64,000 nt of DNA. It comes from Planctomycetota bacterium (GTDB taxonomy: Bacteria > Planctomycetota > MHYJ01 > WSZJ01 > JACPWG01). The stretch's first letter is position 1. The number at the start of each line of letters is the position of its first letter. Under the pieces are notes generated by a model that had not been told where the DNA came from, did not search any database, and was given only the letters and a program-made list of their open reading frames with translations. The DNA is taken from positions 1 to 64,000 of the forward strand of contig JACPWG010000186.1 of NCBI GenBank assembly GCA_016197205.1. The letters run 5' to 3'. Made by a program: the position numbers and the translations under genes. Positions 6,537 through 11,225 of this stretch are shown in pieces.

Positions 6537-9500
6537 ATGTCCGATTCCCGTCCGCCCGCACGCCGATGGCGGCTCCCCGCCGCCCTGCTCCTCATCCTGC
6601 TCCTGGTCCTCGCCCTTCCCGTCCGCAACGCCTGGCGGCTGTCGCGCGACCTCGACCTCCCACCCGAGCCCCTCCCAACCGACCTGCGCGTTTTCGCCCA
6701 CGACCAGGCCTCGCCCGGGGCGCGAGCGCTGCTCGCCTGCGAGGTCCTGGACCGGAAGAGCAGCCGCCCCCTGCCGGGTGCACGCCTCGAGGTGTTCCTG
6801 CGCGGGCCTTCGAGCGTTGACACCGCGGTCGCGGAGGCGGAAGCAGGGGCGGACGGGACACACCTTTTTTTTCTGAACCCTCCGCCGATGCACCAGGGCG
6901 AGTGCGAGTGGGTGGTGCGGGCACGCGGTCCCGGGGACAGGCGGCCGGAGGTCCGCCTGCCGATGGACGCCCAGGGCGCGCGCCGGATCTCCCTCTTCAG
7001 CGACAAACCGGTCTACCAGCCTGGGCAGGTCGTCCACCTGCGCGCCCGGCTGGAGCATGTCGGTCTTCGGAGGCCGGTCGAAGACACGCCCGTGGTCTTC
7101 GAGGCCGAGGACGCGCGACGAAACGTGGTCTTCCGGAAGGAGGAGCGCACGTCCCGGTTCGGCTTGGTCACGGTCGATTGCCCGCTGGCGGAGGAGTTGA
7201 ACGCGGGCGAGTGGCGGCTGCGGGCGCGGGTCGCGGGGGAGACTGGAGGTCCGGCCGGAAGCGGAGTGGACGAGTTGGTGGTCCAGGTCCGGCGGTACGT
7301 CGTGCCCAAATTCAAGGTGACGCTGACGACCGACCGGACGGCCTACGCCGCACGCGACCGAATCCACGGCACCGTGGAGGCCGCGTACACCGTCGGGGGG
7401 CCGGTCGCGTCGGGCAAGGTCGGCCTTGCGATGTCTCTCGGGGACAAGAGTGTGTCCTCGAGGTTGGAAGGGCGGACCGACGCGGCCGGAAAGTGGGAAT
7501 TCGTCGGCGAGGTCCCGGCGCCGAATTTGTTCGGCGCGCGCCCGGGCGACCAGGAGCGGCTCCGGCTGGAAGCGACCGTTACGGATGCGGCCGGGCATGC
7601 GGAGACGCGGTCGATCGAGCGGTTGCTGGAATCGAACGTACTGAAGGTTTCCGTTCACCCCATCGCGCCGGCCGTCCTGCGCGGCCTCCGAAACGACTGC
7701 TTCGTGGCCACCCGGCGTGAGGGCGGTCGCCCCGCCTCGGCGAAGGTCATGGTTCCCGACGGCACGCTGGTCTCCCCGATCGTCACGGGTGAGGATGGTT
7801 TCGGACGTTTCTCGTGGAGTTCGCAGCGGGCCGGCTCTGAGGCTACCGAGCCCGTCGTCGTGTGGGGCGAGGTGGAGGCGACCACCCACGGAGTGACGGG
7901 AGCGAAGGGCGGACAGATTGTCGACATGCTGGGTCCGCGAGCGGAGTACGGGTATCCCAGCGTTCCGGATCCCCTGCGGCGGGCGGTCGGTGCGGACTCT
8001 CCGGCGCGCTTTCTGCTGCGGACCGACCGCACGATCTTTCGCGTCGGCGAGACGCTGCGGCTTGCCTTCGATGCGGTGAACGCGGGAGGACGGTATCTGG
8101 TGGTCGTTTCGCGGGCGGGACACTCTCTCCTCACCCGAACCGCCGAAGCCCCGTCGACAACCACGTCTGTCGAGATCCCCGTGACGAAAGAGCTTGGCGG
8201 TTTCATCGCGGTGCACGCGGTCCGGTCCATGCCGGACGGCGCGTGGGCGCTCGACCGTCGCGTGCTTTTCGTCGACGATCGGGCGGAAATGCGCATCCAG
8301 GCAACACTCGACCGCGAGACCTACCGGCCCGGGGAGACGGCGGAGGTACGGATCCGCGTGCAAAACGACTCGGGGAACCCCGAGCCGGCTGCCCTCTCGC
8401 TCTCGGTCGCGGACGAGGCGGTCCTCTCCCTCGGGACGCCGGACGCACTTGGCCGGGGCGTGGCGGACCAGACAGCCGCAGGGATTGGCGCAACGACGGC
8501 AGGGAGCGGCCGGCGGCTCGGTCTGCCGCTGCCGGCCCCGGGCGAGCCCGCGGACCAGGCCATGCAGCAGGCGGCCGCGGCGACCCTCGCGTCGGCGGAC
8601 CTTGCGGTCGGGGCTACGTTTGCTTCGTCGTACGAAATCGAGCGCGACACGCTCGAAGCGGCCGTCAAAAAAAAGAGCGCTCGTCTGGTCGAGTTCGACG
8701 AGGAAGGCACGAGGTGGCTTTGGAGCCTCTTCGTTCTCGCGGCATTCTGGCTTGTGCCCGGAGCCATCTACTTCGACGAGTACGGGACGGCCAGGGGGAT
8801 CGCTTGGTGGCTCGCGATCCCCGCTTGGCTTGGATCGGGCGTGCTCCTGGATCGCGTCACGGGGTTTGAGGGTGTCTGTGTCTGTAGCGTTGGGCTGTTG
8901 CCGTTCGGGTCCCTTTACGCCTATCTCGTTCACTTCGCTACCGGCCGGGAGCGGGCCGCGGCGGCGGTCATGTGGACGCTGACTCTTGTCCTGGGATTCG
9001 GCATCTTCTCGTCAATCATGATACCCAGGCTCTACGATTTCGGCGGCCACCGCCCCCCAGCCCCCGATCCGCCGACCACCTCCCTCTCCGACCTCGACGA
9101 CTCGGCGCGCAAGAGCTCCGTCCGGGTGCGCGAGCACTTCCCGGAGACGCTTTTCTGGCGACCGGAAGTCTTGACCGACGAGCATGGCGAGGCCGCGGTC
9201 AGCATTCCGCTTGCCGACAACATCACGACTTGGCGACTGGACGTCCAGGGCGTCACGGCCGCCGGCCAGGGCGCGTGTACGACCGCCGGCATCCCCGTGT
9301 TCCAGGACTTCTTTGTCGATCTCGACCTCCCGCTCCACCTCACCGTCGGCGACGAGGTGCAGGTCCCCGTCGCGATCCACAATCACCTCACGGAGGACCA
9401 GGAGGTGCGGGTGGCGTTGGAGAGTGGCGACTGGTTCACGGCCCTGGACGGCCTGGAACGCCGCGTAGTCCTCGGTCCGGGCGAGATCAGCTCCGTCCGG

Positions 9501-11225
9501 TTCGGCGTGCGTGCCCGGACCTTCGGCCTCGGCCGATTCACGGTCCACGCCTTCGGTTCGCGCGGGGTCGCGGACGCCGTGCGGCGGTCCGTGAACGTGC
9601 TCCCGGACGGCGAAGAGGAGACGACCGCCGTCTCGGACGAGCTGGGCGCCGGCGCTGTGTCCAAGCTCCGCTTCCCGGACGAGGCCATTCCGGGCACTTG
9701 CGCGCTCTTTCTCAAGCTGTACCCGACGGCGTTCACGGAACTCGTGGACGGTCTGGACCGGATGGTGCGCCTGCCGTACGGCTGATTCGAGCAAACCACG
9801 TCGGTCACGTACCCCAACGTCGTCATCCTGAGGTACCTCAAAGCGACCGGCAAGCTGACACCGGAGGTGTCGAAGAGGCTCGAAACGGCGCTCGACCTGG
9901 GCTACCAGCGACTGTGCTCCTTCGAAGCGCCGGGCGGCGGCTTCAGTTGGTACGGGGAATCCCCGGCGAACGTCCAACTCACCGCCTACGGCATCGCGCA
10001 GCTCTGGGAAATGAACCGCGTGCGACCGATCGACCTGGGGATCGTCGAGCGCGCGTCGCGCTGGCTCGCGTCGTTGCAAAAAGACGACGGCTCCTGGCGC
10101 GAGGCGAAGCAGCCGCGCTCCCTGGCGATCCAGGGCGGGGGCGCGGCGATGACGGCCTTCGTGGCCTGGGCGCTGGCGGAGTCGGGCCAAACGGGCGCCG
10201 CCGTCGATCGGGCGCGGTGCTTCCTCCTCGGAGCCGTTGGCGATGCCGACGATCCGTACCTGCTTGGGCTGGCGGCGAACGCCTTGCTGGCGCGCGATCC
10301 AGGCGACCCGGCGGGCCTGAAACTCGTGGAGCGCCTCTCCGCGTCGGCTCACGACGAGAATGGCGCGACCTCCTGGAACCGGCGCGGCCCCACTCTGTGC
10401 TGGGGCGGCGGACCGGCCGGGGACGTGGAGGTGACCGCGATCGCGGCGCAGGCGTTGCGTCGTGCGCCCGCGGAAGTCGCTCGCCTGAGCCGCGCGCTGA
10501 CGTGGCTTCTGCGGCGCAAGGATGGCTTCGGCGGCTGGTACACGACCCAGGCCACGATCCAGGCCATCAAGGCGCTCGGCGTGAACGCGGAACGGACGAA
10601 GTTTCCGGAACGGGCCACGGTCCGCATCATGGCGAACGGCGCGCCTGCGGGGACGCTCGAGGTGACCCCTGACAACTCGGATCTGATGCAGCAGGTCGAC
10701 CTGAGTGAGCACTCGCGCCCGGGGGAAAACCGCATCGAGCTGTCCGTAGCGGGGAAAACGACGATGACCTATCAGGCGGTTGCTCGCTGCTATCTTTCGC
10801 GCGAGGCGAAGCAGCGACCGCAGGCGGAAGCCGAGACCGAGGCGGCGCTCGGCCTCGAGGTCGGCTACGACAAGACGTCGGTGGCTTTCGGCGAAGTCGT
10901 GCAGTGTTCCGTGCGCCTGACCTATCGACGGCCTGAGCCCGCGTTCATGGTGATCGTGGACCTGGGCATTCCACCGGGCTTCGAGCCGGACCGCGCGTCG
11001 CTCGCGGACCTGCGCACGAAGGGGACAGTGGACAAGTACTCGATCGACGGCGGACGGATCCTCCTTTATTTGGGAGAGGTCGGGCGCGGTCGCCCCGTTG
11101 CCCTGACCATCGACCTGCGCGCGACGCTTCCCTGCCGCTCCCAGGCGCGGGAGAGCGTGGCCTACGAATACTACAATCCGACGAGTCGCGCAACGAGTCC
11201 GCCGGTGAGCCTCGAAGTGAGGTAG
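6537..11225 (+). CDS. Alpha-2-macroglobulin family protein with in-frame UGA at the thioester cysteine (selenocysteine candidate)
   Basis: The frame reads 1,082 codons, a single TGA at 9783-9785, then 479 more codons to TAG at 11225. The start chosen is the ATG at 6537; a GTG at 6519 behind GGGGAAGGA is an equally good alternative. Residues 13-30 are a signal or anchor helix. MG domains follow (SLFSDKPVYQPGQVVHLRA near 155, FLLRTDRTIFRVGETL near 490, QATLDRETYRPGETAEVRI near 585). The A2M domain (ETLFWRPEVLTDEHG, ADNITTWRL) starts near residue 869. Homologues then carry PYGCxEQ, the Cys-Gln thioester; here the sequence is LPYG-UGA-FEQTTSVTYPNV, followed by a well-preserved thioester domain and C-terminal domain. 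Four hydrophobic segments (about residues 727-830) lie just before the A2M domain, where a bait region would be. Known role: trapping of proteases by covalent thioester attack. Either UGA is read as selenocysteine or the protein is truncated before its trap domain. Confidence 0.85.
9783..9785 (+). other. UGA codon in place of the thioester Cys codon
   Basis: The codons around it are CTG CCG TAC GGC TGA TTC GAG CAA ACC ACG. PYG-x-FEQTTS is the thioester motif with the reactive residue at x. One base change (TGC or TGT to TGA) separates this from a cysteine codon, and UGA is also the selenocysteine codon. Many other genes here end in TGA (for example 19668, 20363, 54627, 57391), so a global reassignment of UGA is excluded. 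Confidence 0.8.
9798..9810 (+). promoter_or_regulatory. Candidate bacterial SECIS hairpin
   Basis: ACGT-CGGTC-ACGT can form a 4-bp stem with a 5-base loop. The loop starts 17 bases after the UGA and contains GGUC. The published bacterial SECIS consensus asks for a 4-16 bp stem, a 3-14 base loop with G in its first two positions, and 16-37 bases between UGA and loop; the Escherichia coli fdhF element also shows GGUC about 18 bases after UGA. This hairpin just meets the minimum. A competing fold pairs ACGT (9798-9801) with ACGT (9817-9820). Such short stems arise by chance, so this alone proves nothing. Confidence 0.3.

Follow-up and report, generated by a model that had tools for sequence, protein, structure and literature searches.

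How can an alpha-2-macroglobulin function if the codon for its thioester-forming cysteine reads as a stop? This question is raised by a gene in the 64,000-nucleotide stretch of DNA that we analysed (hereafter the window; positions 1 to 64,000 of contig JACPWG010000186.1, from the Planctomycetota assembly GCA_016197205.1). In alpha-2-macroglobulin (A2M) and in complement, a Cys and the Gln three residues further on form an internal thioester, which later acylates the amines or hydroxyls of a target. In the window, the A2M frame runs from an ATG at 6537 through 1,082 sense codons to a TGA at 9783-9785, and then through a further 479 sense codons to a TAG at 11223-11225; the residues around the TGA are P-Y-G-[TGA]-F-E-Q-T-T-S. 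A first-pass annotation had placed this lone TGA at the thioester residue and had proposed selenocysteine (Sec) there. The reading of the frame, the Pfam domains and an alignment with solved structures, which sets the TGA opposite the Cys in the GCGEQ motif found in human A2M and CD109, agree with that placement, and the Glu and Gln of the C-x-E-Q motif are retained around the UGA codon that takes the place of Cys. We put at roughly 0.8 the probability that the gene encodes a membrane-anchored Sec-containing A2M, whose UGA is decoded through SelB and an mRNA hairpin and whose Sec forms a selenoester with Gln. The features on which the argument turns are as follows.

6537..11225, plus strand: putative selenocysteine-containing A2M-family gene, 1,562 residues with UGA read as Sec; the frame is open except for one TGA, has Pfam domains and shares its layout with homologues
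9774..9794, plus strand: thioester motif P-Y-G-U-F-E-Q, whose P, G, U/C, E and Q do not vary among 21 aligned homologues
9783..9785, plus strand: TGA codon, candidate Sec, residue 1083, at the thioester Cys by alignment to human A2M and CD109

Is the TGA peculiar to this gene? The host genome has two paralogues (56% and 43% identical), each with one TGA, at the thioester position, and the same is true of an A2M gene from another genus of the family. In the window's order, each of the seven genomes examined encodes an A2M whose frame is interrupted by a single TGA, at the thioester codon. We then searched 392 Planctomycetota genomes, 65 of which had a homologue at E <= 1e-60 (about 80 homologous genes). 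Thirty genes in 24 genomes contained one stop inside the 705-residue match, and in 30 of 30 it was a TGA at the thioester codon, a placement that chance would hardly produce. The first-pass annotation had suggested aligning relatives around this codon and looking in them for unrelated disabling mutations; close and distant relatives have UGA there and others Cys, and no other stop codon occurs inside the match in any homologue of the phylum search.

A blind search for the DNA pattern CCNNNNGGNTGATTYGARCARACNWSN, with each species represented by one genome, gave 45 matches, 41 of which are A2M genes with the thioester TGA in an otherwise open frame; the other four (L036, L046, L047 and L052) were rejected as chance matches with short frames. 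According to their record titles, the 41 belong to Planctomycetota, Chloroflexota (Anaerolineae), Riflebacteria, 'Deltaproteobacteria' and one Bacillota bin; since the carriers are mostly metagenome bins, any one phylum label may be mistaken. Also among the carriers is the complete genome of Ca. Uabimicrobium amorphum, a cultivable organism whose strain SRT547 has a Sec A2M, with the site PGG-U-FEQ, beside a Cys A2M. UGA-containing homologues are present in other Sec-using organisms, and those sharing the thioester TGA, from different genera and phyla, are down to 34-56% identical. Across distinct homologous genes, the thioester codon is TGA in 54 and Cys (TGC or TGT) in 62. Compared by eye, the genes neighbouring the UGA-A2M loci form no shared operon.

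If the UGA ended translation, the codons beyond it should be free to decay. The ratio of nonsynonymous to synonymous substitution rates (dN/dS) 3' of the UGA is 0.05-0.51 in 15 homologue pairs, about equal to or below the values 5' of it, although some pairs are distant and individual values are rough. These codons are under purifying selection, and translation past the UGA is indicated because such ratios are unlike those of pseudogenes. Elsewhere in the window, UGA serves as an ordinary stop, as the first-pass annotation had stated: by approximate gene calls, it ends about 12 of the 28 other long frames with high G+C content at third codon positions.

Can the host insert selenocysteine? The first-pass annotation had named selA, selB, selD and tRNA-Sec as the genes to look for, and all four are in the host genome: SelA (449 bits), SelB (333 bits), SelD (399 bits) and a tRNA-Sec with a UCA anticodon (80.6 bits). 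The SelD gene (L158, G000:C41:18035-18955) itself has an in-frame TGA, in SHGAG-U-ACK, the known Sec site of the SelD family. Therefore, the host appears to decode UGA in a second gene, and its SelD is, as judged from the sequence, itself a selenoprotein. All 24 Planctomycetota genomes with a UGA-A2M have either tRNA-Sec (17, by a strict search) or SelB over the cut-off (21). Two of them (G004 and G297) are without SelB over the cut-off and have tRNA-Sec and SelA; in a third (G120), the SelB match is broken by a contig end and SelA is present. Because 230 of the 392 phylum genomes have tRNA-Sec, its co-occurrence alone is a weak test in Planctomycetota. A further sample comprised the 18 genomes G392-G409, which lie behind loci mostly outside that phylum. 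All 18 have a tRNA-Sec over the gathering score, at only about 50 bits in G392, G405 and G406, and 16 have SelB over the cut-off; the other two, G393 and G406, have SelA. Separately, we observed a SelB/EF-Tu-like match containing one TGA at G411:C82:133027-134286, which may be two adjacent frames.

Bacterial Sec insertion is guided by an mRNA hairpin, the bacterial selenocysteine insertion sequence (bSECIS), and the family was examined for such structures. We compared the 54 distinct UGA genes with the 62 Cys homologues, using shuffles that preserve the protein and each gene's own codon usage. Between +10 and +30 nt, UGA genes had a mean z of -1.54 and Cys genes one of -0.03; permutation of the labels, with every window tried taken into account, gave p = 2e-4 in a test that counts related genes as independent. 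The commonest hairpin has 6-7 bp and a GGT, GGC, GTC or GTT loop at +18 to +20, and its loop, stem and spacing agree with the published bSECIS model (PMC13188914). A stem of at least 5 bp with this loop position is present in 21 of the UGA genes; a single Cys gene has one too, with CAC as its loop. When the published bSECIS rules were combined with an upper stem of -4 kcal/mol or lower, 25 of 54 UGA genes qualified (3.7 expected), as against 4 of 62 Cys genes (3.8 expected). In L134 and L152, from another subfamily, the hairpin persists although the Ser codons differ and base pairs are swapped (GTAGCTC GGT GAGCTAC). For the UGA-A2M family as a whole, a bSECIS stem-loop signal is present after the UGA.

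In relatives from the window's order the hairpin is longer, spanning +19 to +51 with up to 13 pairs; a single-register count of long stems in this order gave 10.0 pairs against 8.0 expected and did not support the window's own gene. RNAalifold, applied jointly to all UGA sequences, found no common structure; as there are at least two structural types, the hairpin emerged only when windows and registers were tested. Of the four sequences in one of the hairpin checks, two (L048 and L134), taken with wrong coordinates, are left out. The window gene contains two candidates.

9798..9810, plus strand: weak bSECIS candidate ACGU-CGGUC-ACGU, with GGU at +18 to +20, in the same register as the strong hairpins found in other phyla; -0.7 kcal/mol, not significant on its own
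9809..9836, plus strand: alternative longer hairpin GUACC...GGUAC, near the long-hairpin register of the order; weak here, strong in L048, L056, L062 and L063

A side observation concerns L102 (in G058), a Cys-type A2M that retains a compact stem, ACGTC CAC GACGT, in the SECIS register with a loop lacking G; this stem is perhaps a relic of a former Sec gene.

How stable is the choice between Sec and Cys? UGA occurs in several A2M subfamilies, and a quick tree of 115 thioester-domain sequences, from which the Sec/Cys residue itself was left out, requires at least 11 changes of state. Well-supported branches force five of these, and with shuffled labels 38 are needed. Within the mostly-UGA clade, four of the nine Cys members are in genomes (G126, G223, G079 and G170) that have neither SelB over the cut-off nor a clear tRNA-Sec, a situation known for none of the 43 UGA members (Fisher p 5e-4, uncorrected for relatedness, with a few UGA genomes known solely from the pattern scan untyped for machinery). 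Cys and Sec paralogues are often found in one genome, including that of the host. Locus L167 of the host genome (G000:C34:6641-13420) is a tandem pair of Cys-type A2M genes, and the same genome has three of Sec type.

Could the TGA nevertheless be an ordinary nonsense mutation or a sequencing error, leaving a protein cut 5' of the thioester domain and a decaying gene? The window gene is represented by a single assembly and its own hairpin is weak, but the identical TGA at the same codon in such divergent homologues, together with 479 intact codons beyond it at a dN/dS well below 1, makes this explanation highly implausible. For the UGA-A2M family, comparison of the sequences excludes a recent mutation or error, the alternative (a recent TGC/TGT-to-TGA change or misread base) that the first-pass annotation had set beside its proposal; that proposal of Sec gained support from the homologous UGA codons, the Sec machinery, the selection past the UGA and the family's hairpins. 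A second rival is readthrough by an unusual tRNA that delivers Cys or Trp: sequence analysis cannot reveal the inserted residue, and a few systems are known to insert Cys at UGA. This too we hold to be very improbable, given the canonical tRNA-Sec, SelA, SelB and SelD of the host, the bSECIS-type hairpins of the family and the ordinary use of UGA as a stop elsewhere. On comparative grounds, conserved recoding at the thioester codon, translation past the UGA, the presence of the machinery and the family-level bSECIS signal can be regarded as established; Sec insertion appears almost certain for the family and only slightly less so for the window's gene.

What the Sec does is a separate matter. 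It might serve redox chemistry, such as a selenenylsulfide or peroxide reduction, instead of acyl transfer, as most known selenoproteins are redox proteins (PMC13188914). Against this stand the exchange of Sec and Cys within an otherwise intact thioester site, the invariance of the thioester Glu and Gln, and the finding of no second conserved Cys in the thioester domain among the aligned homologues; we consider a redox role unlikely. Alternatively, the UGA might be a selenium-controlled switch, with a short form lacking the thioester domain that functions when selenium is absent and a full protein when it is present. Sec insertion competes with termination, and the UGA does divide the scaffold from the thioester domain; however, the stability of a short form lacks support and the Cys alone accounts for the position of the UGA. 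Such a switch, which is compatible with a Sec-containing A2M and does not exclude it, seems somewhat less probable still than the redox role.

Three points weigh against a selenoester-forming Sec-A2M. The chief weakness at the local level is that the window's own gene bears only weak versions of either hairpin type. Second, no SelB was detected in G393, the single chromosome (CP070811.1) that carries the UGA-A2M L043, where no EF-Tu-like match was obtained at E 1e-40; SelA and tRNA-Sec are both present there, and assembly frameshifts or a divergent SelB are perhaps responsible. Finally, selenium in the protein, the selenoester and the binding of proteases are predictions from comparison and analogy.

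With these points in mind, we propose that the product is a membrane-anchored, probably periplasmic, A2M-type protein with Sec as its thioester-forming residue. SelB and Sec-tRNA-Sec would decode the UGA, guided by the hairpin just 3' of it, and with selenium available the cell would make the full 1,562-residue protein. If the chemistry follows that of the Cys proteins, the selenolate would attack the Gln1086 side chain within U-F-E-Q, giving an internal gamma-glutamyl selenoester; once the protein changed shape, for example because its bait region had been cut, this more reactive acyl group would become accessible to the amines of an attacker. The selenium atom itself at residue 1083 is an inference. 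Since Glu and Gln are invariant and no other Cys is conserved, an internal selenoester is favoured over a redox pair, and we judge its formation likely; judging from the family, the covalent trapping of proteases or other attackers is somewhat favoured. Selenoesters react quickly in peptide ligation (PMC9314092), and a quicker but less stable trap would therefore be expected.

The remaining parts of the protein fit the A2M family. MG2, MG3, bait-region and A2M (PF00207) domains lie 5' of the TGA and the thioester and receptor domains 3' of it, all above the Pfam cut-offs; the first-pass annotation had noted that the C-terminal domains are preserved.

6993..7238, plus strand: MG2 domain (Pfam PF01835)
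8016..8432, plus strand: bait-region domain (Pfam PF07703)
8718..9023, plus strand: predicted hydrophobic segments between the bait-region and A2M domains, three by threshold and perhaps four (hydropathy)
9147..9419, plus strand: A2M domain (Pfam PF00207)
9789..10577, plus strand: thioester domain, 3' of the UGA (Pfam PF07678; fold match to C4, CD109 and A2M)
10947..11195, plus strand: receptor-binding domain (Pfam PF07677)

The PF07678 match enters the profile at position 31. A structure model of the thioester domain (predicted local distance difference test, pLDDT, of 85) matches complement C4, C3, C5, CD109 and A2M, with relatives of C4, CD109 and A2M as the best matches; in the model a long helix begins at residue 1083. 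The family and an N-terminal hydrophobic segment lead us to infer a periplasmic, membrane-anchored location. The multi-pass hydrophobic module (2-8 predicted segments) lies in the interval between the bait-region and A2M domains, at about the bait-region site of animal A2M, and was also seen in L020, L043, L048, L053, L066 and L083. Because two or more segments occur in 18 of 34 UGA genes and in 5 of 21 Cys genes, the module is a clade feature with no strict tie to Sec.

We know of no natural internal protein selenoester that has been described. Among the 119 prokaryotic selenoprotein families of the May 2026 inventory (PMC13188914), which takes in the new families of Haft and co-workers, there is no A2M or thioester-domain family. 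The word macroglobulin is absent from that paper, from a 2022 review and from the deep-Sep, Secmarker and Porphyra-Planctomycetes papers, and UGA-A2M is not modelled in NCBIfam release 20.0. Full-text literature searches returned no relevant paper, although subscription papers and preprints lay outside them and priority is not certain; the groundwater study of Deng et al. 2026, cited in PMC13188914, could contain the family. Selenoproteins are mainly regarded as redox enzymes, and a UGA-A2M would put selenium in the acyl-transfer centre of the complement/alpha-2-macroglobulin family; the selenoproteome of bacteria that are mostly uncultured would gain a large surface-defence protein. It is probable, if a shade less so than the selenoester in these proteins, that several bacterial phyla use an encoded internal Sec-Gln selenoester in place of the A2M/complement thioester, for acyl transfer and not for redox chemistry, and that it has been gained or lost many times. 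In genome annotations, such bacteria probably have A2M genes marked as truncated or split. The recurrent exchange of Sec and Cys, often with both forms in one genome, provides a natural test of what selenium contributes to thioester chemistry.

How does the UGA-A2M compare with known systems? It resembles the 119 known prokaryotic selenoprotein families in its UGA at a functional Cys, its Cys homologues, its bSECIS-like hairpins and its association with SelA, SelB, SelD and tRNA-Sec; those families are mostly redox proteins, whereas acyl chemistry is expected here. The A2M of E. coli and Salmonella (YfhM; PDB 4rtd and 4u48) belongs to the same family and matches in sequence around the thioester region, but it has Cys, and by score its branch is more distant from the window protein than the human proteins are. 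With the thioester A2M family of animals (human A2M, CD109 and A2ML1, complement C3/C4 and insect TEP1), the protein shares the order of domains, the fold and P-x-G-[C/U]-x-E-Q; it differs from them in having UGA, and so presumably Sec, at the thioester Cys and, in many Sec members, in the addition of the multi-pass hydrophobic module between the bait-region and the A2M domain.
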